DNA of 48,784 nucleotides from Alphaproteobacteria bacterium (GCA_022826185.1 JAJDVH010000207.1:1-48784), one strand, 5' to 3'. Positions 202 to 17,137 are shown, numbered from the stretch's first letter. A program made the numbers and translations. The notes: a model not told the origin generated them from the letters alone.

Positions 202-1356
202 TCAGTACCGGCTACTCCCCAATACGGAGAGCGAGCGGACGAGCTGCACGAGCTCGACCTGGCGCGAGATGCCGTTCTTCTCGAAGATCTGCTGGAGGTG
301 CCATCGCACCGTCCCCGTGGTCCGTCCGGTCGCCGCGGCGATGTCCCGAAGCGTGCATCCTTCGGCCAGCATGATGGCCACGCGGCTTTCCGCCGCTGTG
401 AGACCGAGCGCGGACCCGATCAGTTCCGGATCGGATGTCGTGCGCGTTTCCGGCTCCACCACGAGCACGACCGCCGCCACCTCGCTTGCCCCCCGATCAG
501 GGAGGTGCTCGCCGACCGGGCTGACGTGCAGCACGAGCCGGGGAGGCAGGTCGACCGGGCGGGTGACGGTCATCGTGGCGCTCGCGCCCCGGGCGCCCGA
601 GCGCGGCAGGGCGCCCGCGAGGATGCGCTGGAGCCTGGCGTCTTCTTCCGGGATGCGGGCACGGAGCTGCCCCCTCGAGTCGCTCAGCCCCCGGCCCTTT
701 CGCAGCAGCTCCCGGGCTCGTCCGTTGGCCTCGACGATCCGGCCCCGGCGGTCGAGCTGGATGATCCCGCAGCGGGTGTTCTCGAGCAGCCCCGCCATCG
801 TCGCGCCGAGCGCCTGTGCGCTGACCAGCGCGAGGCGGACCCGCACATACTGCCGGATGTGGGGGAGGATCCGCGCCACGGTCTCCACCCGCTCCGAGGA
901 CCAGCCGTCATGGTCGACCGGATCCGCCGCCGTCCAGATGATCCGCGAGCCGCTCGGACCGTCCATCCGTGCGTGCAGGCAGTTCGCGGTGTCCGAACGC
1001 GCGAGCATCTCGTTGTAAGCGATCGAGGTTATTTTCTCGTCGTCGGTGTACAGATCGTCGATGCTGACGATGCGGCTGTCCAGAAGCCGCCTCAGCCGGG
1101 GGCCGCGCTCGTCAATGTGGTGGTAGATGCGGAAATACTCGTCCTCGAACTCCTCGCGGCGCTCGCCGCGATAGCAGCAGCGGGCGAAATAGACCGCGAG
1201 GTCGGTCCCGAGCCCTCCTTCGCCCGAGACGAGGATGTTTCCCCGGCTTTCGCAGAGTTCGTCCACGAGAGCTGACGCCGCGGGCCACTTCGCGTCGTCG
1301 AGCATCGCGTCGTGAAGCGATGCGAGGAGCCCGTCGAAAAGGTCCTGCCGGCTCAC
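202..1356 (-). CDS. LuxR-type helix-turn-helix transcriptional regulator with a central PAS-like region
   Basis: This is a predicted cytoplasmic DNA-binding regulator. The last 66 residues (about 319-384) form a GerE/LuxR helix-turn-helix: LTAAESRVAIMLAEG, then DIAAATGRTTGTVRWHLQQI. The middle has a PAS-like stretch (CGIIQLDRRGRIVEANGRA), and there is no receiver domain. I prefer the GTG at 1356, with a GGAG about 10 bases upstream, because conserved-looking sequence (SRQDLFDGLLASLHDAMLDD) starts there; the ATG at 1461 adds 35 basic, low-complexity residues. It lies at the left edge of the exporter cluster, divergent from it. A copy of the island-wide GGTAT motif sits upstream at 1471-1481. 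The inference that it controls the exporter and secreted-protein genes rests on position only. Its ligand is unknown. Confidence 0.85.
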   Translation of the reverse strand: MSRQDLFDGLLASLHDAMLDDAKWPAASALVDELCESRGNILVSGEGGLGTDLAVYFARCCYRGERREEFEDEYFRIYHHIDERGPRLRRLLDSRIVSIDDLYTDDEKITSIAYNEMLARSDTANCLHARMDGPSGSRIIWTAADPVDHDGWSSERVETVARILPHIRQYVRVRLALVSAQALGATMAGLLENTRCGIIQLDRRGRIVEANGRARELLRKGRGLSDSRGQLRARIPEEDARLQRILAGALPRSGARGASATMTVTRPVDLPPRLVLHVSPVGEHLPDRGASEVAAVVLVVEPETRTTSDPELIGSALGLTAAESRVAIMLAEGCTLRDIAAATGRTTGTVRWHLQQIFEKNGISRQVELVQLVRSLSVLGSSRY

Positions 1357-1470
1357 CGCGCGTGCGCTCCGGCAAGTCCCCGCGGCCCGATGCCGTCCAT
1401 GCGGAACGGCCTTCTTCGGACGTTTCCCATGGTCAGATATCGGTCCTCTCCGGTCGGGCATGGCCGTCGG

Positions 1471-2189: not shown

Positions 2190-2204
2190 GTTTCATGTCC
2201 TTGA

Positions 2205-2240
2205 ATGGCTGTGCCGGAAGGGGTGCGGAGCTTGAGGGAC
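2205..2240 (+). repeat. Dispersed 36-bp repeat, copy 1 (inverted copy at 14981-15016)
   Basis: The core GGCTGTGCCGGAAGG continues to CGGAGCTTGAGGGAC. The complement of this whole stretch recurs at 14981-15016 with about four mismatches. The two copies are inverted with respect to each other and enclose the exporter cluster, and each is next to a GGTAT-family motif. Confidence 0.75.
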
Positions 2241-2675
2241 AAGGAACGACTTGGCGGTATTCCGTTCGATGGTGGCGGGGCGATGGGCGGTCAGGGCAAT
2301 GTCCGGGCGGCGCAGCGGACCTCTTCCGTCGGAACGGTATCCTCCGGCCAGGGAGCCCCTTCGGCGCCGGTGACCGGGCAGAGGCGGCATGAGCGACGAA
2401 GCCCGCCTGAGTGGTGGAGGGCGCCCTTGGGGGGCGTCCTGCATTGGGGCGGGGTCATTTTGGGGGCGCCGGGCCCTTCGAGGCGGACGACGGCATCGAG
2501 TGGAGGAAACGGGAACGCAAGCGTCCGGAAGGCGCGGGGCGCTGTCTCTGAAGACGGGACATCGCCCCGGGTTTGCGGACGGCTGCGGCCCCCGGGCGCG
2601 CGGCCGGCGAGACCGCCGGACCGGGGGTTCGGGAACACATGGGCGGACGCCGCCCGTTTCAGAGGAGAGACTCCG

Positions 2676-3959
2676 ATGACATCGATCCGAACGACGTCCA
2701 ACACAACCCAAGATGGCAGCGCGCAGGTGCTCGCCGAGACAGGAACCAGTGCCATGAAGACAGGATTGATCGCCGCAGTTCTGGCGGTGTTTCTCGCGGT
2801 CGGGATCGGTTCGGATCGCGCAAATGCGCACGAGAACGAAGGACTCTTCCAGCAGCTCACTGGTGATGGTGGTGGATGCGACTCCAACTTCCGGGTAACC
2901 ACTGCGAGCGCGACCTGCATGACTTCAGGCTGGAGTCATATGGGTATCCCGCCCTATTGGTCGATTTGGGCAAAGAATGGATGCTCTGACTACGGGGATA
3001 TAGAAGCCCATGTAGACGTTCCCAATGAGGCAGACGAGCATATTCACGCGGACGAAAGCGAGAAAGCATACGCTTACTCGACGAACGAGCCGCGCAGCGT
3101 AAAGTGCTGCGTGAACAAGTCGGACCTCTGCTACAGGGACCAGGTGGAGAAAGTCACGTCCGGCGACAACGAAGGCAAGATCCGGTTCCTTAGGATCTCA
3201 GAAAGCAATACCAGGCTTGTAAGTTATGAAGATGTAAGCACGCATCAGGCGCGCTACGACTTTTGCCAGACGAACCCGAATTACGTCTATTGCAAGGTGA
3301 ACCCGGACGGCGACGCGCTCTATCCGCCCGCTACACCGCCGTCGGAAATGACACTGTCAGAGCTTCGGTCGCGGCCCTGTGGCGGGGAAGGCCAACCGGC
3401 TTGCAGCTGCGGCGACCATATCTGCGACAGGTTCGATTGCGAATGGAACTTCAATCAGAGTTCTGCCTCGGACACGTGCTATAGCACCACAAGCAATTCC
3501 GATGGCCTTGGCGCCCCGGGCTTTGAGCGCGGAGTCAACACGCACTGGTGCAGAGTGAGGGACGTCTCGTGCAGGATTGGCTATAAGCCGTCGACCACGG
3601 GCCCCGGTGGTTCGATCATTTGGAAAAGCAACTCTTCTGTTACCTCTGGCTACACCTGGGAGTTCAGGCGGCTGAAGAATTGCGCGGGCACACTTCCGAA
3701 CCCGCATACGGACGCCTGCAATGAGACTACTCTTATTGGCTGCGGGACTGCCAAGACAAACTTTCCAACAGATGTCACCACGTCGTGTACCGTCACCAAC
3801 ACCCAAATCTCCTGGGTTAACGGCCAATGGTGCAAGTATACGGCGAACTGCAACGACGGCACCACAGGGCCTCTCAATACTACCACCATCCATATCCACC
3901 CGTTGCGTGTGGGTGACCTCAAGAATTGCAGCGGCGTCCTGAAACATAAAACCTGCTGA
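2676..3959 (+). CDS. Large cysteine-rich secreted protein with a duplicated C-terminal module
   Basis: This is a 427-aa predicted exported protein of unknown function. The start is set by a strong ribosome-binding site (AGGAGAG at 2663-2669, 6 bases before ATG 2676). A hydrophobic signal segment (MKTGLIAAVLAVFLAVGIGS, residues 27-46) ends near DRANA; an ATG at 2754 would give a classical signal peptide directly. Cysteines are abundant, including CC at 144-145 followed by C at 152. The motif WC-x5-C followed by LKNC-x-G occurs twice (291-336 and 386-418), an internal duplication. Cysteine spacing (C81, C103, C144, C145, C152 and a C-terminal C-x8-C) matches the N-terminal region of the autotransporter at 20863-23406. 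It lies directly upstream of the TolC gene and four genes before a DsbA-like gene, so it may be an export substrate that needs disulfides. That role is inferred. Confidence 0.8.
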   Translation: MTSIRTTSNTTQDGSAQVLAETGTSAMKTGLIAAVLAVFLAVGIGSDRANAHENEGLFQQLTGDGGGCDSNFRVTTASATCMTSGWSHMGIPPYWSIWAKNGCSDYGDIEAHVDVPNEADEHIHADESEKAYAYSTNEPRSVKCCVNKSDLCYRDQVEKVTSGDNEGKIRFLRISESNTRLVSYEDVSTHQARYDFCQTNPNYVYCKVNPDGDALYPPATPPSEMTLSELRSRPCGGEGQPACSCGDHICDRFDCEWNFNQSSASDTCYSTTSNSDGLGAPGFERGVNTHWCRVRDVSCRIGYKPSTTGPGGSIIWKSNSSVTSGYTWEFRRLKNCAGTLPNPHTDACNETTLIGCGTAKTNFPTDVTTSCTVTNTQISWVNGQWCKYTANCNDGTTGPLNTTTIHIHPLRVGDLKNCSGVLKHKTC

Positions 3960-4027
3960 TCGAAAGTCCGTTGTGATTGAGGCAAACATCCTTGCAGGGC
4001 GAGAACAGCACGTGGCGAAGAACGGGC

Positions 4028-5434
4028 ATGCGGCATACGGGAAAAAGCGCGTCGAGCTGTCTCGTCGCCGCATGCTTCGCGCTGGCCTGTCTTGCAGGGC
4101 CGTCTCAGGCGCAAACCGAAAGGCAGGCCCTTCTCGACCTCTCGCTTGAGGAGGCGGTCCGGCTGGCGCTGACGGGGAGCCGATCGGCGATCCAGGCGCG
4201 GCTCGGGCGCGAGGAGCAGCTTCTCTCCCTCGACGCGGCGGAGGAGCGCTACGATCCGAAGGCCGGCGTGACCCTCGGGACGAATGCTGCCAGTCGGGGA
4301 GACGAGACGGCGGACCTGTCGATCGGGCCGAGCCTGCGGGTGCCGACCGGCGGCTCGTTCCGTCTCTCCTTCCGCAAGCCGCTGGCGGGCGAGCGCGACC
4401 GGGAGGCGAGCACGACGCTCTCCTTCTCGCAGCCGCTGCTGAAGGGCTTCGGGCCGGAGCTTGACACGCAACCGCTCCGCCGGGCGCGGCTGCAGGAGCA
4501 GATCAACCGCCGCGCCTTCCGGGACAGCGCGGCCGGTATCGTGGACGGGGCCGTCTCCGCCTATCGCGGCGTGCTGCGTGCGGGGCAGCGGGTGGTCATC
4601 GCGCGCGAGGCACTGGAGCGGGCTCGGGAGCAGCTCCGGATCAACCGCACGCTGGTCGAGGCCGGACGGATGGCGCCGCAGGACCTTGTGCAGACCGAAG
4701 CCGACGTCGCGAACAAGGAATATGCGCTGACCGACGCCGAGAACGCCCTGGATACGGCCAATTCCGGCCTCGTCAACACGCTCGACCTTGAAGAGGGGGT
4801 CAGCATCCGGCCGCAGGCGGAGCCGCCCATCGAGCCCGAGCAGCCGGACCTTGGGGAGAGCATGGAGACGGCGTTTGCGCAGCGGACGGACTGGCTGAGG
4901 GCCGAGACCGGCATGGAACTGGCGCTCATGGGCCTTCGGAGGGCGGAGAACGCGCTCCTGCCGGACCTCTCGCTGAGCGTGCAGGCGGCGCATCGCAGCG
5001 GACGCGACCGCACGGACTGGTCGGGCGGGCTCAACCTGACGGTGCAGCTGCAGGACGACGAGCCCCGCCGGGCGCTGACGCGCGCACGGAACAGCCTTCG
5101 CCGGGCGGAAATGAACCTCGCCGAGCGGCGCCAGTCGATCCGTATCCAGGTGCGCCGGGCGGTCCACAATGTGGCGGTGGCGCTGCGTCAGATCGAGCTC
5201 TCCCGCCAGGCGCGGGAGCTGGCGGAGCGGAAGCTCGACGTGGAGCGGCGCAAGCTGCAGCAGGGCCTCTCCTCCGCCTTCCAGCTCGGCCGTTTCGAGG
5301 ACGACCTCGTGGCGGCGCAGAGGCGTGAACTGGACGCGGTGGCGCACTACCGGGATTCGCTTGCCGGGCTCGACCGGACGCTCGGCACGACGCTCGACCG
5401 TTGGGGGATCGGCGTGGAGCAGGTGGGGCGGTGA
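4028..5434 (+). CDS. TolC-like outer-membrane efflux protein
   Basis: This 468-aa outer-membrane channel of a tripartite exporter would form a trimeric duct joined to a membrane fusion protein. From ATG 4028 there is a signal peptide (SSCLVAACFALACLAGPSQA). Two long helical halves follow, rich in Arg, Glu, Ala and Leu, as in the two OEP repeats (for example LDLSLEEAVRLALTGS and AERKLDVERRKLQQG). The phrase LSFSQPLLKGFG is typical of the family. A TTG at 3977 would add 17 unlikely residues. The stop codon overlaps the GTG of the next gene (GTGA), so the two are probably translationally coupled. Length and domain order are normal for the family. Confidence 0.88.
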   Translation: MRHTGKSASSCLVAACFALACLAGPSQAQTERQALLDLSLEEAVRLALTGSRSAIQARLGREEQLLSLDAAEERYDPKAGVTLGTNAASRGDETADLSIGPSLRVPTGGSFRLSFRKPLAGERDREASTTLSFSQPLLKGFGPELDTQPLRRARLQEQINRRAFRDSAAGIVDGAVSAYRGVLRAGQRVVIAREALERAREQLRINRTLVEAGRMAPQDLVQTEADVANKEYALTDAENALDTANSGLVNTLDLEEGVSIRPQAEPPIEPEQPDLGESMETAFAQRTDWLRAETGMELALMGLRRAENALLPDLSLSVQAAHRSGRDRTDWSGGLNLTVQLQDDEPRRALTRARNSLRRAEMNLAERRQSIRIQVRRAVHNVAVALRQIELSRQARELAERKLDVERRKLQQGLSSAFQLGRFEDDLVAAQRRELDAVAHYRDSLAGLDRTLGTTLDRWGIGVEQVGR

Positions 5435-7185
5435 CCGGGCCCGACATCCACCGCGAGGTGCTGGAGAACCTCGAGGACGGGGTGCTCGTGGTCGGCCTTG
5501 GCGGGCGGATCGAGACGCTCAACCCGGCGGCGGAGCGCATTCTTGGCCTGGAGGCGGGTGAGGCGGCGGGCCGGGGCTTTGCCGAGCTGTTCATCCTGCG
5601 CGAGGGCTTCGACGACTTCACCCAGCTCGTGATCGATGCGACGACCGGCGAAGCCGGCGCGCAGCGCCACGTGGTCGAGGTACAGAGCATCGGCGGGGCA
5701 CGCGCGCTTTCGGTCGCCACCTCCTATCTCAGAAGGCCGGGCGCTGACGGCTCGTCGGAGGCGGTGGCGGCGATCGCGGTGTTCAGCGACATCACCGAGC
5801 TGCGCGAGCTCCGGGAGACGGAGCTCCGGCTGGCGAAGGAGGCGGAGGCGCAGCATCACCGCCTGCAGGACGCCTACCGGGAGATCGAGGATCGCAATGC
5901 GGCGCTGGCCTCCGCGCTGCGCAAGGTGCGGGTGGTGCAGGGTCTCGGCATGGCGCTGGCGGTGGGGCTGTTCGTCGCCGCCGGTTTCTGGACCACGCAC
6001 TCGCTCGACCTGTTCGAAGGGACGACGGCGGAAGCGGCTGCCGTGCCGGCCGGGGACGGGACCCGGGTGACCGTCCGGCCGCGGCGGGTCAGGGACGGCA
6101 TAACGCTCCGGGGAACGCTTGCGCCCTGGCGGGTCGTGACCGTACGCAGCCCGATCGATGCAGACATTGTGGCGATGCATTTCCGGACGGGGCAGGAAGT
6201 CGCGAAGGGGGACGTGCTGCTGGAGCTGGATCTTGTCCGGGCCAAGCAGAAATACGCAGTGGCGCGCGCGCGGCAGGCGGAGGCGCTGAAACGCGTCCGG
6301 TCCCTTGAGGACTGGGAGAACAGCCCGGAGATGGTGGCGGCCCGGCGGAGCTTCACCAAGACGCGGCTGGCAATGGAAGGCGAACGCAGGAAGATCAACA
6401 AGAGCCGCTTTCTTTTCGAGGAAGGGCTGATCTCGACCTCCGATCACGAGGACGCAGAACGGCAATTCAGGGGCCAAGAACTCGACTTCGCCGCGGCGGA
6501 GGAGGAGTTCGCCGCCATCCGCGCCCAGGCCAGCGAAGAGGCGCTGGAAGATGCTCGGCTGGCCCTGGAAGCCGCGCGCACCGAATTCCGCGCGGCGGCG
6601 GAGGCGCTCCGGCAGGACGCGGTACGCGCACCGATCGCGGGTGTCGTGCTGCCTGCAACCCGGGCCGGCAGGGAGATGACGGCCATCAATTCGGTGCAGA
6701 GGGGACAGGAGTTGCTCGGGATCGGCGATTTCTCCCGCATGGCGGCTTCGGTCAAGGTGGACGAATCGGATGTGGTAAGTCTCCGGGCCGGTCAGGATGT
6801 CACGGTCACGGGCAACGCCTTCCAGGGGCTCAGGCTCAAGGGCGAGGTGACCTATGTCTCCTCGCAGGCGAACGCCGGATCGGGCGGCATTCCGAAATTC
6901 GACATGAGGGTCACGCTCGACCCGGTCGGGCCGACGGTGGCGGCGCGGCTGCGCTCCGGCATGTCGGCCCGTCTCCGGATCGTGACCTACGACAACCCCG
7001 CGGCCTTGTCCGTGCCGCTGGCCGCGGTGATCAGCAACAACCATGTGCATGTCCTTCGCGTGATCGACCCGGAAACCGGCGACATCGAGAAGCGCCGGGT
7101 CGAGATCGGACCGACCGCAAGAGAGTCGGTCGAAATCCGCGCGGGCCTCAAGCCGGGCGAAACCGTTCTGGTGCCGGGCGGCTGA
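5431..7185 (+). CDS. PAS sensor fused to a HlyD/MacA-type membrane fusion protein (copy 1)
   Basis: This 584-aa inner-membrane protein has an unusual domain order. A cytoplasmic PAS domain covers residues about 8-125 (GVLVVGLGGRIETLNPAAER to AIAVFSDITELREL). A charged coiled coil spans 126-165 and one transmembrane helix lies at about 170-187 (GLGMALAVGLFVAAGFW). A periplasmic MacA/HlyD adaptor follows: lipoyl half near 205-240, a long helical hairpin, second half near DAVRAPIAGVVLPATRAG, then beta-barrel and membrane-proximal domains ending KPGETVLVPGG. The GTG at 5431 overlaps the TolC stop. The family links inner-membrane ABC permeases to TolC. The PAS part suggests that a cytoplasmic signal gates or assembles the pump, which is my inference. 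A paralogue with the same architecture lies at 13013-14785. Confidence 0.87.
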   Translation: MTGPDIHREVLENLEDGVLVVGLGGRIETLNPAAERILGLEAGEAAGRGFAELFILREGFDDFTQLVIDATTGEAGAQRHVVEVQSIGGARALSVATSYLRRPGADGSSEAVAAIAVFSDITELRELRETELRLAKEAEAQHHRLQDAYREIEDRNAALASALRKVRVVQGLGMALAVGLFVAAGFWTTHSLDLFEGTTAEAAAVPAGDGTRVTVRPRRVRDGITLRGTLAPWRVVTVRSPIDADIVAMHFRTGQEVAKGDVLLELDLVRAKQKYAVARARQAEALKRVRSLEDWENSPEMVAARRSFTKTRLAMEGERRKINKSRFLFEEGLISTSDHEDAERQFRGQELDFAAAEEEFAAIRAQASEEALEDARLALEAARTEFRAAAEALRQDAVRAPIAGVVLPATRAGREMTAINSVQRGQELLGIGDFSRMAASVKVDESDVVSLRAGQDVTVTGNAFQGLRLKGEVTYVSSQANAGSGGIPKFDMRVTLDPVGPTVAARLRSGMSARLRIVTYDNPAALSVPLAAVISNNHVHVLRVIDPETGDIEKRRVEIGPTARESVEIRAGLKPGETVLVPGG

Positions 7186-7194
7186 GCGCGCGCG

Positions 7195-7893
7195 ATGCTG
7201 GAACTCGCCGACATCCGCAAGAGCTACCGGTTGGGGCCGGTGGAGGTCGAGGTGCTGAAGGGCATCGACCTCCGTGTGGATGCGGGCGACCTCATGTCGA
7301 TCATGGGGCCGTCGGGCAGCGGCAAGTCCACCCTGATGAACATACTGGGCCTGCTGGGCCGACCGACCTCCGGCTCCTACCGCCTCGGCGGGCGCGACGT
7401 CTCGACCATGAGCGACCGGGAGCTTTCCGCCTTCCGCAACGAGCATATCGGCTTCGTGTTCCAGTCCTTCAACCTGCTGGGGCACCTGACGGCGCTGGAG
7501 AATGTCGCCCTGCCGCTGACCTATCGCGGCATGGGCCGGCGGCAGGCGGGCCGCAGGGCGGAGGAGATACTGGAGAAGGTCGCCATGGGCGACCGTCTGG
7601 ACCACAGGCCGGACCAGCTCTCGGGCGGACAGAAGCAGCGCGTGGCGATCGCGCGCGCCCTGGCGGGGACGCCGTCGGTCGTGCTGGCGGATGAACCGAC
7701 CGGCGCGCTCGACTCCAACACGGCCGATGAGGTGATGCAATTGCTGATCCGCCTCAACCGGGATGAGGGGGTCGCCGTGGTCATCATCACCCACGATCCC
7801 GTCGTCTCCCTGCTGTGCCGGCGCCAGTCGCTGATCCGCGACGGCATGCTTCTCGACGGGAGCGCAGAAATGGCGGAAAGCGGCGCGCCGTGA
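7195..7893 (+). CDS. MacB/LolD-type ABC transporter ATP-binding protein
   Basis: This 232-aa cytoplasmic ATPase should power the neighbouring MacB-like permeases. All motifs are present: Walker A GPSGSGKST, Q-loop FVFQSFNLLGHLTALENV, signature LSGGQKQRVAIARALAG, Walker B VVLADEPTGALD, and H-loop VVIITHDP. It belongs to the MacB/LolD/FtsE clade by its SFNLLGHLTALENVALPL segment and by its position. It is the only ATPase gene in the cluster although there are two permease genes. Its TGA overlaps the GTG of the permease gene by GTGA. In canonical MacB the ATPase and permease are one polypeptide; here they are split. Confidence 0.93.
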   Translation: MLELADIRKSYRLGPVEVEVLKGIDLRVDAGDLMSIMGPSGSGKSTLMNILGLLGRPTSGSYRLGGRDVSTMSDRELSAFRNEHIGFVFQSFNLLGHLTALENVALPLTYRGMGRRQAGRRAEEILEKVAMGDRLDHRPDQLSGGQKQRVAIARALAGTPSVVLADEPTGALDSNTADEVMQLLIRLNRDEGVAVVIITHDPVVSLLCRRQSLIRDGMLLDGSAEMAESGAP

Positions 7894-9083
7894 AGCATAC
7901 GAGCGCCGTGTTCGTCGACAGCCTGCGCGAGGCATTGCGCTGCCTCCTGCGCGCCCGGCTGCGGAGCATGCTCGGCATTGTCGGCATCGGCATCGCCTCG
8001 GTGATCGCCATGGTCTCGGCCGGAGAGATCGCGAAAGCCGAGGCGCGCAGGCAGTTCGAGGCGCTGGGTACGGACATCGTCACGGTGCGGGTAGCGGGCG
8101 GCAATCGCAGCGCGAAGATGCAGCTCGACGACGCGCTCGCGCTCGCCGGATCACTGCCGGAAATCTCCGCGGCGTCTCCCGTCGTTACCGGCGCCGCGGG
8201 CTTTCTCCATGCCGGCCGGTCCGTCGGCAGCGGATCCATGACGGGGGTCACGGAGGCGTATGCCGACCTCGCCAAGCTCGAGGTGGCCCGTGGGAGATTC
8301 CTGTCGGACCTCGATGCCGGCCGGTTCTGGTGCGTCGTCGGCGCCAAGGTCGCCGACGCGATCCGCAAGGCCGGAACGCTCGACCCGCTGGCGGCCGAGC
8401 TGGAGATCGGAGGGCATTTCTACCGCGTGGTCGGCGTGCTTGAAAGGCGGGAGGAGGCCTACGGTTCTCCCCTGAACGTCAGAGCCGACGAGGCTGTGTT
8501 TGTGCCCGTCGCAACCGCCTGGCGGGTGACCCGTAATGCCAGAATCGAGACCATCATCGCCCGCGCCGCACCCGGCGTTCACCACGAGGATGCGGCGACG
8601 GCAGTTGCGGCCTGGTTCAAGAAGCGCACACCGCGGGTTGGACTCAAGGCCGTCAGCGCCAAGCAGCTTATCGCCCAGATGGAGGCGCAGCTCGGCGTGA
8701 TGACCCTACTGCTGGGCGCCATCGGCTCCATCAGCCTCATCGTCGGCGGCATCGGGGTCATGAACGTCATGCTGATCTCGGTGAGCGAGCGCCGACGGGA
8801 GATCGGCGTGCGCCGGGCGCTGGGGGCGAGCCGTGGCGACATAAGGCGCCAGTTCCTGATCGAGTCCGTTATCCTCACGCTCACCGGCGGCCTGGTCGGG
8901 CTTGCGGTCGGCAGCGCCGCCACGTGGGGCATCTGCGACTATTCGGGCTGGGAGTTCTTCGTCTCGACGCTCTCCGTGGTCATCGGGCTCGGCGTCTCCT
9001 CGGCGGTCGGCGTGTTTTTCGGCCTCCAGCCCGCCCACCAGGCCTCCCGCCTCGATCCCATCGTCGCCCTCCAGGGGGAATGA
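7890..9083 (+). CDS. MacB-type (FtsX-fold) ABC permease, copy 1
   Basis: This 397-aa inner-membrane permease has an N-terminal helix at about 28-46 (LGIVGIGIASVIAMVSAG), a large periplasmic MacB-PCD-like domain, and three C-terminal helices. The family signature GGIGVMNVMLISVSERRREI and GVRRALGAS is present. The start is the GTG at 7890 overlapping the ATPase stop; an ORF from 7815 is open but reads inside the ATPase gene. MacB permeases work by mechanotransmission, coupling ATP hydrolysis to periplasmic movements that drive TolC export. A cysteine in the phrase ATWGICDYSGW before the last helix is shared with the second permease (ATWGICHFSGW). There is no fused ATPase domain. Confidence 0.9.
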   Translation: MKHTSAVFVDSLREALRCLLRARLRSMLGIVGIGIASVIAMVSAGEIAKAEARRQFEALGTDIVTVRVAGGNRSAKMQLDDALALAGSLPEISAASPVVTGAAGFLHAGRSVGSGSMTGVTEAYADLAKLEVARGRFLSDLDAGRFWCVVGAKVADAIRKAGTLDPLAAELEIGGHFYRVVGVLERREEAYGSPLNVRADEAVFVPVATAWRVTRNARIETIIARAAPGVHHEDAATAVAAWFKKRTPRVGLKAVSAKQLIAQMEAQLGVMTLLLGAIGSISLIVGGIGVMNVMLISVSERRREIGVRRALGASRGDIRRQFLIESVILTLTGGLVGLAVGSAATWGICDYSGWEFFVSTLSVVIGLGVSSAVGVFFGLQPAHQASRLDPIVALQGE

Positions 9084-9142
9084 GACATCCGCAACCGGAC
9101 GACCGGCCCGACATCCGTCTGCCGGTATGAATAAAGGACATC

Positions 9143-9898
9143 ATGCATATGCGAACTCCTATCCTGGCGGCGCTTGCCGCGCTGGTCCTCCTGATGCCCC
9201 TTGCGGCGGCAGCCCACCCCGGTCACGGCGCGAAGCCGGACAGGGGCGCAGTCGAAGGCATCGTCCGCGACTACCTGCTCAAGAACCCCGAGGTGATCGA
9301 GGAAGCTATCGGGGTGCTCCGGGCTCGGCAGGAGGAAGAGAGGCGCAAACGCGCCGAGGCCGCCATAGCCGAGAACGGCGAGGCGCTCCACGCGCACCCG
9401 ATGTCGCCGGTGTCGGGCAATGCCGGGGGCGATGTCACCGTGGTCGAGTTCTTCGACTATCGCTGCGGCTTCTGCAAGCGTGCGCTGCCGGCGATGGAGG
9501 CGCTGCTGGAAGAGGACGCAAATGTGCGGGTCGTGTGGAAGGAGTTCCCGATCCTTGGCCCCGTCTCGGTGTCCGCCGCCCACGCGGCCATGGCGGCCGA
9601 TCGGCAGGGCAAGTACTACCCCTTCCACCTCGCGCTGATGAAGGAACCGGAGCTCACCGAGGCCAAGGTGTTGGTGATTGCCGCCGAGGCCGGGCTCGAC
9701 CTTGAGCGGCTGCAGCAGGACATGGAGGACCCGGCGATCCAGGCCTATCTCGACGAGACGCAGGCGCTGGCCCGCGAGATCGGCATCAACGGCACGCCCG
9801 CCTTCGTGGTCGGCGGCAAGCTGGTTCCGGGCGCCGTCGATGCAGCCCGCATGAAGGAACTCGTCGCCGCCGCACGCGCGGATGGCAACCGGGAATGA
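9143..9898 (+). CDS. Periplasmic DsbA-family thiol:disulfide oxidoreductase
   Basis: This 251-aa exported thioredoxin-fold protein has a signal peptide (PILAALAALVLLMPLAAAAH), a short helical N-terminal region (GIVRDYLLKNPEVIEEAIGV), then the thioredoxin fold. The active site is FFDYRCGFCKRALP (CGFC) and the cis-proline loop is GINGTPAFVV. The N-terminal helix resembles ScsC/Com1-like DsbA proteins. The start at 9143 has an AAAGGA ribosome-binding site. It lies 60 bp downstream of the permease gene and in the same orientation. It is probably dedicated to forming or repairing disulfides in the cysteine-rich secreted proteins of the cluster. Whether it acts as oxidase or isomerase cannot be told from sequence. 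Confidence 0.9.
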   Translation: MHMRTPILAALAALVLLMPLAAAAHPGHGAKPDRGAVEGIVRDYLLKNPEVIEEAIGVLRARQEEERRKRAEAAIAENGEALHAHPMSPVSGNAGGDVTVVEFFDYRCGFCKRALPAMEALLEEDANVRVVWKEFPILGPVSVSAAHAAMAADRQGKYYPFHLALMKEPELTEAKVLVIAAEAGLDLERLQQDMEDPAIQAYLDETQALAREIGINGTPAFVVGGKLVPGAVDAARMKELVAAARADGNRE

Positions 9899-9911
9899 GG
9901 AGGACGGCGGC

Positions 9912-10598
9912 ATGAAGACCGAAACGCGCCGGGACGCCTCAGCGGTCGTCATCTCGCCCTCCGGACGGCTGGACGCCGCCGGCGGCTCGGCGCTCGAAGC
10001 CGAATTCGCTACCTTTTCAATACATGGTAGCCGCGTGGTGCTAGACTGCCGCAGGATCGACTATATCAGCAGCGCCGGGCTGCGCACCGTCCTCCTCCTT
10101 GCAAAGGCCTGCCTGCACGCAGACGCCGAACTCATCATCGCCACGCTTCAGCCTCAGTGCCGGGCCGTCATGGAAGCAAGCGGCCTCTTGCCGGCGCTCA
10201 AATACCGCGAGACCGTCGAGGCCGCGCTCAATGCAGGCAGCCGCAGCCGGCCGCACCAGGAAGACGCCGGAATGGAAATCGGCGAACGGCATGAGCGAGA
10301 TGCGACCATCGTCTCTCTGGACGGGCGCCTGACCGGGGAGAGCGTGTCGGTCCTGACGTCCAGGGTCTCTGCCATCATCGAGCGCGGGGCAGCCCGTGCG
10401 GTGCTGGACTGCGGGAAGCTGAACTATGTCAACAGCGCCGGCCTGAGGGCCCTGCTGATCTGTGCGAAGGCATGCCAACAGGCCGGTGGCCAGTTCACCC
10501 TCGCCGCGCTGACGCCGGAATGCCGTTCCATCATCGCCATGAGCGGCTTTCTCTCGATCATCGATTGCCGGGACACCATCGAGGCCGCGCTGGCCTGA
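9912..10598 (+). CDS. Tandem STAS-domain protein (anti-sigma factor antagonist-like)
   Basis: This 228-aa cytoplasmic protein consists of two STAS domains joined by a short linker (about residues 110-125). Each domain has the SpoIIAA-type motif carrying the potential phosphoacceptor serine: IDYISSAGLRTVLLLAKAC and LNYVNSAGLRALLICAKAC. The halves are clearly homologous to each other (LKYRETVEAAL against IDCRDTIEAAL). A GAGGAGG ribosome-binding site precedes ATG 9912. STAS proteins of this type act in partner-switching cascades with serine kinases and phosphatases, but no kinase, phosphatase or sigma factor gene is visible nearby. It closes the forward operon. The role in exporter control is unknown. 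Confidence 0.88.
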   Translation: MKTETRRDASAVVISPSGRLDAAGGSALEAEFATFSIHGSRVVLDCRRIDYISSAGLRTVLLLAKACLHADAELIIATLQPQCRAVMEASGLLPALKYRETVEAALNAGSRSRPHQEDAGMEIGERHERDATIVSLDGRLTGESVSVLTSRVSAIIERGAARAVLDCGKLNYVNSAGLRALLICAKACQQAGGQFTLAALTPECRSIIAMSGFLSIIDCRDTIEAALA

Positions 10599-10832
10599 GG
10601 ATGAAGGGAGCCGGGAGAAGCGAACCGGGCGCGCAGGCCGCAGTTCGACAACCCGGAGACCCGGCCTTGCCCATTCCGGCAGGGAGCAGAATGGTGGTGC
10701 TCCAGGCGAACCGGGAGGCGCCGGCGGTGCCGCTTGCCGCGGTCCAGGGCGGCGGCGGTGCCCACTGCCTGCAAGAGACCACCATCAATAGGGACGGCAA
10801 GCGCATCACCACCCGGAACCATCGTTGGACCG

Positions 10833-10861
10833 GGCCGGCAATGTCACGCGCGCTGCCGGCC
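10833..10861. terminator. Hairpin between convergent STAS and permease genes
   Basis: GGCCGGCA at 10833-10840 pairs perfectly with TGCCGGCC at 10854-10861, with a 13-nt loop. It abuts the permease stop codon. There is no U-tract, so it is a candidate bidirectional terminator only. The 10599-10832 stretch shows no supported gene. Confidence 0.3.
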
Positions 10862-12051
10862 TATGCGCCCTGCAGCGCGGTGACAGGGTCGAGCCCGGCT
10901 GCCCGGCGGGCGGGATAGAAGCCGAAGAAGATGCCAGCACTGCTGGCCACGACGGCGCCCAGCACCGTACCGCCTGAGGACAGTTCGAACGTCCAGCCGC
11001 TGAAATGGCAGATCCCCCAAGTTGCGCAGCCCCCGAGAACCACCCCGACAAGCCCGCCCAGCAATGAAAGGATCGTCGCTTCTGTCAGGAACTGCGCCTG
11101 GATGTCCCAGCGGGTCGCCCCCAGCGCCCGCCGGACCCCGATTTCCTGCCGGCGCTCCATCACCGCCATCATCATCACGTTCATCACGCCAATGCCGCCG
11201 ACAAGGAGCGAGATGCCGCCGATCGCGCCGAGCAGCAAGGTGTACAGGCGCGACTGGCGGTGCATTTGCTCAATCAGCTCCTCCGGACTCCGCACCCTTA
11301 CCCGGGCTCCCGGCTCCCGTTCCCGGAAATATGCGACGACCTCGCGGGTCGACGTGCGATAGTCCGTGCCCGCGGCAGTCTGCGCCAGGATGTCGCGAAG
11401 GGTTTCCTCCGGCGCAATGCGGCCGGCCGTGGCGATGGGTAGGTAAACGGCCCCGTTCGGATCGAATGGCCGCTGGCCCACGTCCGACCGCCGCAGCGAC
11501 CCGATGACGGTAAAGACGGCTTCCCTGAGGCGGATCTTCGCGCCGACGATATTGCCGCCGATGGCCTCCCGAAGCCTGTTCGCGACCTCGAACCCGACGG
11601 CGCAGAAATAGCGGCCACCGTCGAGCCTGGAGACGAAGCGGCCCTCCGCCACCTCTAGCCTGGCAAGCGACGCGAAGTCCTCCGTAACCCCGACGATACG
11701 CACGGTCTCCGTCTCCGTGCCCCCGTACACGGCAGCGGCGCCGGCCTCCGTGTATGGCGCGGCACGGCGGATTCCGGGCAGCGCTGTGATCCCTTCGGCG
11801 TCGCCCTGTTTGAGCGCGATGCGCCCCCGGCCCTTGTTTCGCGCCCGCACCCGGATATTCACGATGTCGGTCCCGAGTTCCTGGAACTGCCGGGCCGCTT
11901 CCGATTTCGCGATCGATCCGATCGAAATCATGCTGCTTACCGAGGCCACGCCGATCGCGATCCCGATCAGCGCCGGGGCGGTGCGATGCCTTGCGCTCAG
12001 CAGGCTCGACCAGGCCTCCGCCAGATGCGTCCGGTTGAAGATTCGCAACAT
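10861..12051 (-). CDS. MacB-type (FtsX-fold) ABC permease, copy 2
   Basis: This 396-aa inner-membrane permease is paralogous to the one at 7890-9083. It shares the N-terminal helix (TAPALIGIAIGVASVSSMIS), the periplasmic core phrase ARQFQELGTDIVNIRV against ARRQFEALGTDIVTVRV, and the C-terminal block LLVGGIGVMNVMMMAVMERR with GVRRALGATRWDI. The start is ATG 12051 behind GGGAGCGGG; an ATG at 12201 would run through the promoter palindrome. It has no ATPase of its own, so it may share the ATPase at 7195 and could form a heterodimer with copy 1. It is transcribed divergently from the small secreted-protein gene at 12219 across the palindrome 12109-12123, suggesting shared control. Confidence 0.88.
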   Translation of the reverse strand: MLRIFNRTHLAEAWSSLLSARHRTAPALIGIAIGVASVSSMISIGSIAKSEAARQFQELGTDIVNIRVRARNKGRGRIALKQGDAEGITALPGIRRAAPYTEAGAAAVYGGTETETVRIVGVTEDFASLARLEVAEGRFVSRLDGGRYFCAVGFEVANRLREAIGGNIVGAKIRLREAVFTVIGSLRRSDVGQRPFDPNGAVYLPIATAGRIAPEETLRDILAQTAAGTDYRTSTREVVAYFREREPGARVRVRSPEELIEQMHRQSRLYTLLLGAIGGISLLVGGIGVMNVMMMAVMERRQEIGVRRALGATRWDIQAQFLTEATILSLLGGLVGVVLGGCATWGICHFSGWTFELSSGGTVLGAVVASSAGIFFGFYPARRAAGLDPVTALQGA

Positions 12052-12108
12052 CCCGCTCCCGATGATCCGCCCGACCGATAGGGAAACCTTTGGTACCTCA
12101 TAAGAATA

Positions 12109-12123
12109 CGGTATTTTATACCG
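12109..12123. promoter_or_regulatory. Perfect palindromic operator-like site 1
   Basis: CGGTATTTTATACCG has 6-bp perfect arms and a 3-bp centre. It lies between divergent genes, 57 bp from the permease start and 95 bp from the secreted-protein start. An identical 15-mer occurs at 15614-15628 at the same distance (about 97 bp) from the paralogous secreted-protein gene, preceded by the same CATAAG. Confidence 0.75.
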
Positions 12124-12218
12124 TGATAAGGGGTGGTAACAATTGTGGCCAAGCCGGGTTCGCGGAAACCGACCCTGGTGGAATGCGCAGTATCGACACA
12201 ACGCGAAAGGAACGCTTC

Positions 12219-12788
12219 ATGCGTACCACACCGAAATATCTTCCCCGGCGGCAGCCAAAAGCGGAGGGGACCGTTCAGCACGCCTTGAGAAAAGGACAGA
12301 CCGGCTTTCGGGCGGCGCTGCTGGCGGCGGCGCTTCTCGGCGCCGGCGTGGCGTCGGCGGACGAGTGCAGCGACGAATGGGACGAATCGACGGCGGCGAC
12401 ATATTGCGGCGACTCGATCGACTCGGTAACCGTTGCGAACGTGTCGGGCACAACCAAATGCAGCGTCGATATCGCCTGCTACAACAGCGTCAACCTCCTG
12501 AACGGGCCGAACTACGACAGCCTCGAGGTGAGATTCTACGTGACCAATCCCATCACGTGGCAGGTCTGGACAGATGACGACGGCAACAGCAACAGCAGCA
12601 CCAACGGCCTCGCCCGGACCGATGTCGATGACATCACCATCTGCTACTACGCGAACGAGCTTACCGGCGACACTTGGGTAAGCTGGGCGGACAAGCTCGT
12701 GGTCGGCAGCTGCGCCAGCGGCGAAGTCGATGTCACCGATGCGGTGGCGAACGGGCTGGACATGCGGGTGTCCGAGTTGAACAATTAG
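12219..12788 (+). CDS. Small secreted six-cysteine protein, paralogue 1
   Basis: This 189-aa exported protein of unknown function has an extended signal peptide (start MRTTPKYL; hydrophobic FRAALLAAALLGAGVASA, residues about 32-49). The mature part has six cysteines: DECSDEW, YCGD, KCSVDIAC, ICYY and SCASG. It shares cysteine order and several phrases with the protein at 15726-16214: C-x-DEW near the mature start, then YC, then CASGE near the end followed by an alanine-rich -TDA- or -TAITDGL- tail. The ATG at 12219 follows GAAAGG. About 120 bp of 5' DNA is also conserved between the two genes. Its position opposite the permease and near a DsbA suggests an exported, disulfide-bonded substrate. 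No known family was recognised. Confidence 0.78.
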   Translation: MRTTPKYLPRRQPKAEGTVQHALRKGQTGFRAALLAAALLGAGVASADECSDEWDESTAATYCGDSIDSVTVANVSGTTKCSVDIACYNSVNLLNGPNYDSLEVRFYVTNPITWQVWTDDDGNSNSSTNGLARTDVDDITICYYANELTGDTWVSWADKLVVGSCASGEVDVTDAVANGLDMRVSELNN

Positions 12789-12836
12789 AGGGCGCTCCCG
12801 CCGTCGTCGAACCGGCGTCGCCGGAGAAACTCGAAT

Positions 12837-12872
12837 GCCCCCGGGACGGCGCGGCAGTTCCGGCCCGGGGGC
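12837..12872. terminator. Hairpin between convergent secreted-protein and PAS-MFP genes
   Basis: GCCCCCGGG at 12837-12845 pairs perfectly with CCCGGGGGC at 12864-12872 (18-nt loop). It lies about 50 bp after the stop of the rightward gene and 140 bp after the stop of the leftward gene. No U-run follows, so the terminator call is tentative. Confidence 0.35.
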
Positions 12873-13012
12873 AGGCGGGATTGCCGAGCCGGGATGGCGG
12901 CGCCGGCGGCCGGGGCGGCATCGAGAGGCGGCGAAACGGAGTTTCCGGCAAGCTGCCTGCCGCCGCCCCGATCACCGCCGCGGGCCTTTCCACGCTCTAC
13001 AGGCCGCCGGGC

Positions 13013-14785
13013 CTACGGCACGACCACCCTGTCTCCCGGCGCAAGGCCGCTCAGGATTTCCACCGAATCGAGCGTCGTGATTCCCGTCGCCACCTCGACG
13101 ACGCGCTCTTCCCCGGTTTCCTCGTCGCGCAGGCGCACGCGCGGGCCGCCATGGGAGAGGTCCACCGCGCCGACCGGCACGACGAGCGCCTGCTCGTTTT
13201 CGTAAACCACGATCTCCATTTCGGCGGTCATACCGAGACGCACCGCCCGGCGCTGCTCCTCGTCCAGCCTGTCCACTGCGGCCGCGATTTCGAAGACCGG
13301 CAGATTGCGCTGCCCAATGCCCCGGAACGCCCGCGACGACACATGCACGATCCGGCCTTCGAGCACGTGCCCCGGAAAGGCGGGGCCGGAAATCCGCACC
13401 GCATGGCCGGGCCGGATGCGGCGGACCTCCACTTCATCGACGGAGCCCGACGCGGTAATGCCGCTCATGTCCCCGATGGTGACGAGATGCGACCCGGCTT
13501 CGACCTTGGTCCCCGTCGTCAGCCCGCTCCCGCGGCGCGGGTCCGTATCTCCAAGGCGCAGCACGACGCCGGCGACGGGCGCGGCCACGGTCGCGTTCCG
13601 GAGGACGGCTTCGATCCGTTCGAGTTCGCTTCTGGCGTTTTCGAGTTCGAGGCGGGCCACCTCGCGGCTGTCCGTGCCCTTGGCGAGCACGGCGTTCAGG
13701 TTCTGCTCGGCCGCCTCCATGTCGAGGAGACGCGTGCGGTGCTCGCGTTCCGCCGCGACCCTCCTGGCCGCGGGCGCCAACCCCTGCTCCACAAGGAACA
13801 CGGTCTCCGCGAGCTTGGTATTCGACGCCTCGAGCGTGATCCGGGCCTTGGTCACGGCACGCTTCGCCCTCGACGCCTCCGGACCGTTGGACCAGTCGTT
13901 CAGCCCCTCCATCTCCGCCTCTGCTCTCAACCAGGCCGCCCGCGCCTTGCGGTGCTCGATCCGCACCTCGCCCACATCGAGCGTCAGCAGCGGCTGCCCT
14001 TCGGCGACGGTCTCTCCAAGCTTCGCATGCACCGTCCCGACCTTGCCCTCGAACGGGCTGGCGACCGCAACCTTGCGAAGCGGCTCGACTGCGCTGGTCA
14101 CGTCGATCGTCGAAGCGATTCGCCGGGGCTCGACGGCAAGCAGGCGCGTTTCGCCGGGCGCTTTGGCGGCCTGCGTCGGCGGCGCGCCGAACAGCGAGGG
14201 GGTCGAGCCGTCCCACAGCCAGGCCCCGAGGCCGACGACGATCGCCGCTCCGCAAATGGAGACCGCCAGCCGCACCGCCCGGACCTTTCGCAGCAGCCCG
14301 CCCAGCTCGACATTCCGGTCCTCCAGGCTGCGATAAGCGCCCTGCAACTCCCGGTGCCTGGCCTCGACTTCCTTTGCGAGCGCGATTTCCTTCGCTCGCA
14401 GGCTTTCGATTTCCGTGATGTCGCTGAACACCGCGACGACGCCCCGGCGGTCGTCCTCGCTGCCGAGCAGCTCGCGCAGATAGGACGTATCGACGGCAAG
14501 CGGCACAGGCCCGCCCCCTACCTGGACGGTCGCCACCCGCTGCTGGCCGACGGCCCCGTCGTGGATCGCCGCCAGAATCGCCTCGTTGAGTTCGTCGAAC
14601 GCATCGTCGGCGAAGAAGACCTCGGCAAAGCTCCGGTGCAGCACCGCATCGCGGTCCAGCCCGAGCAGCCGGGACGCGGCCGGGTTGAAGGTCTCGATCC
14701 GCCCCTGCCCGTCTATGAGCACGACACCGCATGTCATGCTGTCGCAGACCGCGCGATAGATGGAAGCCGAATCGTCAGACCGCAT
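13013..14785 (-). CDS. PAS sensor fused to a HlyD/MacA-type membrane fusion protein (copy 2)
   Basis: This 590-aa protein has the same architecture as the gene at 5431. It has an N-terminal PAS domain (residues about 10-125, CGVVLIDGQGRIETFNPAAS to VVAVFSDITEIESL), a coiled coil (AKEVEARHRELQGAYRSLED), one transmembrane helix at about 173-191 (LAVSICGAAIVVGLGAWLW), and a periplasmic adaptor with lipoyl halves around VASPFEGKVGTVHAKLGE and ATVAAPVAGVVLRLGD. It ends LAPGDRVVVP. The segment joining PAS to the helix is the most similar part between the copies (LEDRN-x-x-L and LRKVRA). It stands apart from the main operon in the opposite orientation. A second MFP and a second permease but one ATPase and one TolC suggest either a mixed pump or two alternative pumps. 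Confidence 0.87.
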   Translation of the reverse strand: MRSDDSASIYRAVCDSMTCGVVLIDGQGRIETFNPAASRLLGLDRDAVLHRSFAEVFFADDAFDELNEAILAAIHDGAVGQQRVATVQVGGGPVPLAVDTSYLRELLGSEDDRRGVVAVFSDITEIESLRAKEIALAKEVEARHRELQGAYRSLEDRNVELGGLLRKVRAVRLAVSICGAAIVVGLGAWLWDGSTPSLFGAPPTQAAKAPGETRLLAVEPRRIASTIDVTSAVEPLRKVAVASPFEGKVGTVHAKLGETVAEGQPLLTLDVGEVRIEHRKARAAWLRAEAEMEGLNDWSNGPEASRAKRAVTKARITLEASNTKLAETVFLVEQGLAPAARRVAAEREHRTRLLDMEAAEQNLNAVLAKGTDSREVARLELENARSELERIEAVLRNATVAAPVAGVVLRLGDTDPRRGSGLTTGTKVEAGSHLVTIGDMSGITASGSVDEVEVRRIRPGHAVRISGPAFPGHVLEGRIVHVSSRAFRGIGQRNLPVFEIAAAVDRLDEEQRRAVRLGMTAEMEIVVYENEQALVVPVGAVDLSHGGPRVRLRDEETGEERVVEVATGITTLDSVEILSGLAPGDRVVVP

Positions 14786-14980
14786 CGGTTCCGCTCCCGG
14801 GCATCACCCGCATTGCCGCCGCGGCCTCCGCCGAAAAGGTTCGAGAGGCCTGGGATTTCCGGGTCAGCCGGCCGTCAATCGCCCATCTCCCCATTTGTCC
14901 CGGCGAAACCGTCGTCGACATCCGGGAGGTCGCTGCCGGGCCGTTCCCTCCGTGGCGGCGACGGTTGCCGCAGGTTCATC

Positions 14981-15016
14981 GTCCCTCAAGCTCCGTACTC
15001 CTTCCGGCACAGCCGT
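14981..15016 (-). repeat. Dispersed 36-bp repeat, copy 2 (inverted relative to 2205-2240)
   Basis: The plus strand reads GTCCCTCAAGCTCCG, ending CCGGCACAGCCGT, the complement of copy 1 with a few mismatches. A GGTAT motif follows 14 bp later, as in copy 1, where the motif lies 15 bp on the same side. Confidence 0.75.
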
Positions 15017-15030
15017 TCCCGAAGAATAGA

Positions 15031-15043
15031 GGTATTTATTGCC
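15031..15043 (+). promoter_or_regulatory. GGTAT-family motif
   Basis: The sequence is GGTATTTATTGCC in the context ATAGA-motif-GAT. This matches the copies in the 196-bp repeats on the other strand (ATAGA-GGTATTAAATGCC-GAT) with three mismatches over 21 bp. Confidence 0.45.
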
Positions 15044-15046
15044 GAT

Positions 15047-15350
15047 TTAAAGGGCGGCATCGGGCAAGTCGGGAGTTCCCTGCACGCCCTTCGCTATCGA
15101 TCCTGAGAGGCTCTCGCTTCGCCCTGTACCCCCGGGCACGATGTCGAGGGCGTCGTAGAAGTTTTCGTCCGGACGTGCCGCGACCATCGCTTCGACCGTG
15201 CGAACCCGGCCTTCGCAGCCGGCGTCCTCGATTCAGGCGATGCGGTCGCCTGCGACCGGTTCGGGACAGTCGGGTTGGCGAATCCCCGAGGGGATGGGCT
15301 GCAGCGGGGCCAGCTCCGGCTCTCGGAGCCCCTTGCCGGGCCCGGGGCCT
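15047..15350 (-). pseudogene. Decayed minus-strand reading frame with an internal TGA
   Basis: Read in one frame, this stretch gives protein-like text (LAPLQPIPSGIRQPDCPEPV, then after a TGA at 15233-15235, EAMVAARPDENFYDALDIVP) down to a TAA at 15047. No start is visible, and upstream the frame breaks up. I do not recognise the family. It could also be chance. Confidence 0.25.
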
Positions 15351-15613
15351 CTTCCAGTTCGATCTCGGCAGATCGCCGTACAGGTCGATCCCGGGGCCGG
15401 GTCGGCATCTCAACACCCTCGGATTCGCCCGTCCTGGCGGGTTAAGGCACCGGCCGAGTTTTGCGGGCGGGCTCCACCATCGGAGTCGGTCCGAACGCGG
15501 GGTCGGGGCGGCCTGGAGCCCTCTGCCCCGGTTCGCGAAATGCCCTTGCCGCAAGAGTTCGCCCCCGGCCGGAAGCGATCCCATAGGCATAACTTTGACG
15601 CCGCATAAGGAAA

Positions 15614-15628
15614 CGGTATTTTATACCG
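15614..15628. promoter_or_regulatory. Perfect palindromic operator-like site 2
   Basis: CGGTATTTTATACCG is identical to site 1 at 12109-12123. The preceding CATAAGGAAA and the following GGTAAC-x-ATT-x-TGGCCAAGCCGGG are also conserved, so the whole leader was duplicated with the gene or is under selection. Confidence 0.75.
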
Positions 15629-15725
15629 CAATGATGGGCTGGTAACGATTATGGCCAAGCCGGGATCCACAGGAACCGACCTTGGTGGAGTGGACAGAAT
15701 CCACACAACACGAGAAGGACCATTC

Positions 15726-16214
15726 ATGCATACCACCTCGAAATATCTCGCCTCGCTCTTGGCGCCTCTCGGCATCGCCGTCACGCTCGTGCTCGGGAGT
15801 CTCGGCCTGCCCGTCCCGGCTCACGCAGAGACATGGCAGGACTGCAGAGACGAGTGGAACAGTGCGCCCGCGGCATCGTACTGCACCGGCGTCGTGTTCG
15901 CCCGGGTCAACACCGCAGCCGAGGCCGAATCCCTGGGCGCCGATGTCGGGGATTGCCTCGTCGGCAGCGGCACCTGTTCGATTACCGCTACGGTCCATTC
16001 CTCCAATGGGTCCGTGTCGGAAACCTGGACGCCGACTACCGGCGACATCTACACTGAGGAGAGCAATGTTTCGACCATCGACATCTGCTTCAGCAGCTCG
16101 GGCTCGACCTGGACGGCGACGGTCAAGGTGGGCTGCGCCTCAGGCGAGTCGACGTCCGCCACCGCGATCACGGACGGCCTCCGCGTGACTTCCGAAGCGT
16201 CTTCCAGCGACTAG
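15726..16214 (+). CDS. Small secreted six-cysteine protein, paralogue 2
   Basis: This 162-aa exported protein is related to the one at 12219. It has a signal peptide (start MHTTSKYL; LGIAVTLVLGSLGLPVPAHA) and a mature chain with six cysteines: DCRDEW, YCTG, DCLVGSGTC, ICFSS and GCASGES. The paralogues share the cysteine order and the motifs DEW, AA-x-YC, a W followed by T or D/E-rich turns, and V-x-x-IDIC or V-x-x-ITIC. The ATG at 15726 follows GAGAAGG. Low charge, many Ser/Thr and an even spread of cysteines suggest a small beta-rich secreted protein. Its function is unknown. It may be a further substrate of the exporter, by neighbourhood only. Confidence 0.75.
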   Translation: MHTTSKYLASLLAPLGIAVTLVLGSLGLPVPAHAETWQDCRDEWNSAPAASYCTGVVFARVNTAAEAESLGADVGDCLVGSGTCSITATVHSSNGSVSETWTPTTGDIYTEESNVSTIDICFSSSGSTWTATVKVGCASGESTSATAITDGLRVTSEASSSD

Positions 16215-17075: not shown

Positions 17076-17137
17076 ATGCGGACGTGGCGAAAACAGCGCG
17101 GGCTGATGCCGATATCGAGGAAGGGGAGAAGCTAACG

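Follow-up and report, generated by a model that had tools for sequence, protein, structure and literature searches.

What leaves the cell through a MacB-type transport locus whose adaptors carry a cytoplasmic PAS domain and whose neighbors include cysteine-rich secreted proteins? The question is raised by positions 2676 to 16214 of a 48,784-nucleotide stretch from an Alphaproteobacteria bacterium (GCA_022826185.1 JAJDVH010000207.1:1-48784; the window hereafter means this whole stretch). We consider it probable that the locus encodes a split MacAB-TolC-type exporter, which picks up disulfide-bonded proteins delivered to the periplasm by Sec and releases them outside the cell. Its genes, including two for PAS-bearing membrane fusion proteins (MFPs; here also PAS-adaptors), are the following, with E values from hidden Markov model (HMM) searches:

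2676-3959 (+): CysL, secreted, cysteine-rich, first gene of the run (HMM matches, size, cysteine count)
3977-5434 (+): TolC-family outer membrane channel (OEP; PF02321, E 5.5e-37)
5401-7185 (+): PAS-MFP1 (PAS_4, E 5.4e-9; HlyD_3, E 8.7e-16; transmembrane helix near residue 178)
7195-7893 (+): stand-alone ATP-binding cassette ATPase of the MacB/LolD/DarD type, 232 amino acids (PF00005, E 2.1e-33; NCBIfam)
7815-9083 (+): MacB1, permease without an ATPase domain (MacB_PCD, E 8.2e-31; FtsX, E 6.2e-21)
9143-9898 (+): exported DsbA/ScsC-like thiol oxidoreductase with a CGFC motif (PF01323, E 4.3e-28; ScsC_N, E 1.3e-13)
9882-10598 (+): tandem STAS protein (PF01740, E 4.3e-30, in two stretches)
10861-12201 (-): MacB2, permease partner of PAS-MFP2 (MacB_PCD, E 3e-30)
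12210-12788 (+): CysS1, small secreted protein with six cysteines (matches to the A3 and A2 profiles introduced below)
13013-14785 (-): PAS-MFP2, the second PAS-adaptor (PAS, E 2.9e-14; HlyD_D23, E 4.1e-13)
15723-16214 (+): CysS2, small secreted protein with six cysteines

Pfam scans match every component that a first-pass annotation had named and placed here; both of its small six-cysteine proteins are present, and the second, CysS2, lies beyond position 14785, where that annotation had ended the cluster.

Architecture of the exporter and the PAS-adaptor family

The first seven genes (2676-10598) run in one direction in the order listed, from CysL to the tandem STAS protein; as annotated, no gap or overlap between neighbors exceeds 79 bp, and the oxidoreductase and STAS genes overlap by 17 bp. 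Downstream, on the opposite strand, are MacB2 and PAS-MFP2, with CysS1 between them and CysS2 just past PAS-MFP2. Chance grouping is excluded, since both a paralogous contig (L024) and other genomes repeat the gene order. Neither MacB permease has an ATPase domain, and hence the system is a split MacB; MacB2 has no ATPase of its own at the window locus. Both permeases score above the cut-offs of PF12704 and PF02687, and the channel matches the TolC family (PF02321). The equivalog for MacB with its fused ATPase is not reached (NF007826 scores of 262, 168 and 154 versus a cut-off of 966), nor is that for MacA (NF008606 scores of 48.7 and 56.1 versus 342, in adaptors that also carry PAS domains); both adaptors pass the broader RND_mfp subfamily (140.1 and 103.1 versus 94.9).

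Several parallels are offered by known systems. MacB pumps pick up their substrates from the periplasm; the peptides known to be their substrates are commonly small, with disulfide bonds, and the enterotoxin STII is exported by Sec, oxidized by DsbA and expelled by MacAB-TolC (PMC5985334). The window resembles this Escherichia coli arrangement in its MacB-type permease, MacA-type adaptor and TolC channel and in a Sec- and Dsb-dependent, disulfide-bonded periplasmic cargo, and differs from it in the separate ATPase, the cytoplasmic PAS domain on the adaptor, the co-encoded oxidoreductase and STAS proteins and the presence of two adaptor/permease pairs. The MacA of known pumps is without a cytoplasmic domain (PMC13328181). 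Like the Aat/Cex systems for dispersin and CexE, a dedicated MacB-type exporter is encoded with small secreted protein cargo; the cargo differs, no PAS domain is reported for Aat/Cex, and a scan of the genes at 2676-16214 revealed no AatD-like acyltransferase. The Anabaena DevABC-HgdD system shares the split ATPase and permease, an adaptor and TolC, and the cytoplasmic N-terminus of its adaptor affects activity (PMC5985334), whereas its cargo is a glycolipid and no PAS domain is reported there. LolCDE likewise has a pair of MacB-fold permeases served by a single separate ATPase; the window differs in having TolC and adaptors, and its proteins fall short of the corresponding equivalogs (LolD, 237.9 versus 307.75; LolCE, 35 and 46 versus 362). 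From these comparisons we infer a mode of action like that of MacAB-TolC and of Aat, with a sensor added on the adaptor.

The PAS-adaptor is a real family. Its members consist of a cytoplasmic PAS domain, a helical linker, a single transmembrane helix and a HlyD/MacA-type periplasmic part; 15 copies align across their full length (alignment A1), with the PAS region well conserved. The genome of the window holds six copies, and a scan of public genomes recovered 34 loci, full-length or nearly so, whose records name Alpha- and Gammaproteobacteria, Geobacter/Trichlorobacter, Desulfobotulus and a small number of further phyla. Within the class, the adaptor is present in 6 of 385 sampled genomes; the class samples are thin and, where large, were scored for only a few candidates per genome. 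Several of the metagenome-assembled genomes presumably come from sponges, to judge by one record name (Spongia_Bin9) and by the way such bins are usually named. TolC, the ATPase and a split MacB permease adjoin the PAS-adaptor in most of the scanned loci, so that, as the first-pass annotation had thought worth checking, the genes form a recurrent set. It had also not recognized a combination of dedicated folding enzyme, PAS gating and cysteine-rich cargo; no PAS-bearing MacA-type adaptor turned up in the titles and abstracts of the open-access literature subset, whereas disulfide-bonded cargo with a folding enzyme has a precedent in MacAB-TolC, DsbA and STII (PMC5985334).

Linkage of the cysteine-rich proteins to the exporter

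Three related profiles, A2, A3 and A4, were built for the domains of the cysteine-rich proteins, whose linkage to the exporter is found within the genome of the window, across its genus and beyond. Within the genome, every match to the three profiles falls on contigs C34, C124, C140 and C179, each with a PAS-adaptor; together with C70 these are the roughly 113 kb of PAS-adaptor contigs in a genome of 4.48 Mb. Among the 385 class genomes, A3, the CysS family, matched this exporter-bearing genome alone, and the genomes with A4 and no PAS-adaptor match (G004, G297 and G367) have it on Calx-beta/barrel-like proteins or in a broken version. The co-occurrence check proposed in the first-pass annotation came out in favor of a system, and the adaptorless A4 proteins of the class sample are autotransporter-like or decayed. 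Proteins of the A2 type also occur in gammaproteobacterial exporter loci (L052 and L060).

Other loci place unrelated secreted proteins in the same position. In L048, three paralogous secreted proteins surround a PAS-adaptor exporter (6722-7237, 7316-7879 and 14598-15119), and two of the three pass the cut-off of the CVNH lectin family (best E 1.4e-7), the third scoring 15.4 versus 24.5. At L208:5180-6719, TolC and a PAS-adaptor are preceded by three consecutive genes for small secreted proteins with six cysteines each, none of them in a Pfam family. A family with four cysteines lies 135 to 437 bp after MacB in the Geobacterales, where it is present in 4 of 141 genomes of the order and, in three of them, as a single copy per genome. 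A general detector for signal-bearing proteins with 60 to 230 mature residues and at least four cysteines counted 35 such proteins over the 142 kb next to exporters versus 51 over 787 kb of control loci, a 3.8-fold density (9.2 expected; Poisson p 7e-11), although it is crude and takes in some spurious frames. The pairing also follows the phylogeny of the adaptors. Along their tree, the label for cargo type switches 9 times versus a shuffled mean of 22.3 (minimum, 18), and the sponge-type subtypes switch 4 times versus a mean of 11.2 (minimum, 7). Paralogous loci inside the window genome behave likewise, and loci of the MFP2 clade pair with CysS-type proteins and those of the MFP1 clade with CysL-type proteins.

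These patterns bear on the alternative that the exporter moves some other substrate, such as an envelope lipid, a small toxic molecule or a siderophore, and that the cysteine-rich proteins are neighbors traveling with it on variable genomic islands. MacB pumps also export lipids and drugs, certain exporter loci have no cysteine-rich neighbor, and the window holds two tandem tyrosine-recombinase-like genes. Nonetheless, the pairing repeats across phyla with unrelated cargo families, the cargo subtype tracks the adaptor clade even where paralogous loci within a single genome are compared, and the annotated TolC start is 17 bp downstream of CysL, an order repeated in L024 and L039. We therefore regard co-travel as unlikely, and export of the cysteine-rich proteins as the better account of their position.

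A number of observations weigh against that account, besides the crudeness of the detector. Part of the agreement between cargo and adaptor tree is ordinary conservation of orthologous loci. Neither the profiles nor the detector found a cysteine-rich neighbor in L041 and L043, both with full flanks, and genome G007 has an exporter and no A2-domain match. Conversely, no exporter accompanies a fourth, distant homologue of the four-cysteine family (G532) in the 19 kb read, and cysteine-rich genes lie without an exporter gene in the stretches read of G002 (C122, C136, C223 and C252), G006 (C214) and G001 (C462), the related assemblies concerned being fragmented drafts. At 41.5 kDa, CysL exceeds the limit of roughly 10 kDa that has been suggested for folded MacB substrates, and hence it is the weakest cargo candidate; the first-pass assignment of the cysteine-rich proteins as cargo from their neighborhood gains from the recurrence of the link and is strained by the size of the largest of them. 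Finally, the genome has nine DsbA-family matches, so that the local oxidase is not the sole candidate for the folding step.

The cysteine-rich proteins and their proposed route

CysL, of about 41.5 kDa, has a presumed mature part of 379 residues with 24 cysteines and, by HMM matches, one A4 and two A2 domains. Mature CysS1 and CysS2 are about 15 and 13 kDa, with six cysteines each. Signal peptides are seen on the cargo candidates, and the Pfam scan found no family covering any of the three. The A2 and A3 profiles are related (hhalign probability 95.6, E 1.2e-8). The same domains recur further along the window, in a protein of another architecture:

20863-23460 (-): A4+A2 cysteine-rich fusion protein with Calx-beta and a barrel-like C-terminus (A4, E 1.1e-38; Calx-beta, E 1.3e-17)

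As its C-terminus has a weak, below-cut-off match to the autotransporter barrel (PF03797, E 0.0014), this protein is probably self-exported, an apparent second export route for the same domain family.

This protein also bears on the possibility that the cysteine-rich proteins stay in the periplasm and assist an efflux pump as accessory or sensor proteins, for instance, as disulfide-switched ligand binders that feed the adaptor. Such a role would fit proteins encoded beside a pump together with a periplasmic oxidoreductase. Against it, homologous domains on a protein with a weak barrel match point outside the cell, the CVNH-type neighbors at L048 are members of a lectin family, and several paralogues per exporter suit cargo better than a single accessory protein. 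An accessory role accordingly seems to us highly improbable, and we retain the view of these proteins as secreted cargo.

The AlphaFold model of CysS2 is confident (predicted local distance difference test score [pLDDT], 92.8), and comparison with the PDB by Foldseek and VIA-align returned no clear match, only OB-fold-like noise; the missing match does not show a new fold. For the A4+A2 model (pLDDT 81.5), the A2 part aligns with three CVNH chains at Z scores of 4.9 to 5.2 (root mean square deviation, 2.0 to 3.3; 49 to 56 residues), within the chance range, and A4, as modeled in the paralogue at 20863-23460, has a weak Ig-like/tendamistat resemblance with Z up to 6.5. PDB sequence searches with A2, A3 and A4 yielded nothing meaningful. 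An identity of A2 with CVNH by sequence was considered and rejected, as PF08881 (CVNH) matched none of 12 A2 members and the hhalign comparison of the two profiles was not significant, leaving a weak fold lead. Lectin-like function is thus no more than a lead, as the sequence tests fail and the fold match reaches a Z of about 5.

The following route can be proposed. The cargo would reach the periplasm via Sec, and its disulfides might be formed or checked by the co-encoded ScsC/DsbA-like protein. By analogy with the mechanism of the family, the MacB permease, powered by the stand-alone ATPase, would then drive the cargo through the adaptor and TolC. The MFP1/MacB1 pair may serve CysL-type proteins, and the MFP2/MacB2 pair, possibly using the same ATPase and TolC, may be specialized for the six-cysteine CysS proteins. 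Locus L054 has MFP2 and MacB2 with TolC, the ATPase and STAS, and neither MFP1 nor MacB1 was found there. This gene set indicates that MacB2 probably works with this type of ATPase and suggests that the window MFP2/MacB2 pair may share the single ATPase and TolC.

Signal input and local regulation

We further postulate that a cytoplasmic signal at the PAS domain of the adaptor, possibly together with the STAS protein, sets the activity or assembly of the pump. Of the PAS gating in the first-pass annotation, the domains themselves are present on both adaptors, and the gating step is a prediction from domain architecture. Deletion of the DevB N-terminus blocks export and not the association with its transporter in DevABC (PMC5985334), and N-terminally truncated MacA cannot stimulate the MacB ATPase (PMC10094684); these results make gating by the cytoplasmic part of the adaptor plausible. 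Both STAS domains, in translation, retain the serine of anti-anti-sigma STAS proteins (YISSAGL and YVNSAGL). Alternatively, the PAS domain might set only the oligomerization or localization of the adaptor in a constitutive pump, which would leave the cargo claim intact. In favor of this alternative, the PAS region has no conserved histidine, cysteine or tryptophan suggestive of a cofactor; on the other hand, it is well conserved over the aligned copies, and Geobacterales loci add a signaling cassette, in Trichlorobacter thiogenes (L056:5589-8484) one of Tll0287-HAMP-PAS, HD, STAS and HATPase_c_2 genes that immediately precedes the exporter. We hold a constitutive pump to be possible, if somewhat doubtful, and favor signal-dependent gating.

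More broadly, we advance with caution, as a proposal that may well not hold in full, that PAS-adaptor MacB pumps are an undescribed, widespread branch of signal-gated secretion systems with the sensor built into the adaptor. Each adaptor/permease pair would have a matching cargo family, made up of small, disulfide-rich proteins that probably bind glycans or the host, and the branch would have expanded in animal-associated (sponge-type) bacteria. Periplasmic MacB pumps have a very short list of known protein cargo. With a sensor fused to the adaptor, the cognate cargo candidates encoded next door and a cultured member, Trichlorobacter thiogenes ATCC BAA-34, it becomes directly testable how such pumps select folded proteins and time their release. 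Were the proposal to hold in animal symbionts, it would also point to a secretion path reserved for lectin-like, disulfide-rich proteins and directed at the host.

The window also holds a regulator and short repeated elements upstream of its genes:

202-1461 (-): LuxR-type regulator with a PAS domain (PAS, E 3.2e-5; GerE, E 1.6e-4)
2203-2247 (+): 45-nt element upstream of CysL
12108-12123 (+): 16-nt element ACGGTATTTTATACCG, inverted repeat CGGTAT-TTT-ATACCG, upstream of CysS1
14974-15018 (-): 45-nt element upstream of PAS-MFP2
15613-15628 (+): second, identical copy of ACGGTATTTTATACCG, upstream of CysS2

The copy of ACGGTATTTTATACCG at 15613-15628 is the sole one identical to that at 12108-12123, with 0 expected by chance, and the two 45-nt elements are 89% identical and in the same orientation relative to their genes. 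A search of the fetched exporter loci found the 45-nt element in the window only and the 16-nt inverted repeat only in loci overlapping it. As neither element turned up in the other loci of that search, they suggest local coregulation and not a wide regulon. The regulator, which the first-pass annotation had correctly placed to the left of the cluster, has homologues near exporter genes in two other genomes (L028 and L215). At L215:1-8081, genes for A4+A2 proteins, LuxR, TolC, the ATPase, DsbA and STAS stand in a row, and neither a PAS-adaptor nor MacB was found in that stretch.

Farther downstream, two tandem genes on the minus strand (25487-26698 and 26702-27820) resemble tyrosine recombinases/integrases in translation and may mark the boundary of a genomic island. 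At 17000-17794 (+), a weak HSDR_N match (E 0.0021) points to a possible restriction-type nuclease-fold protein.

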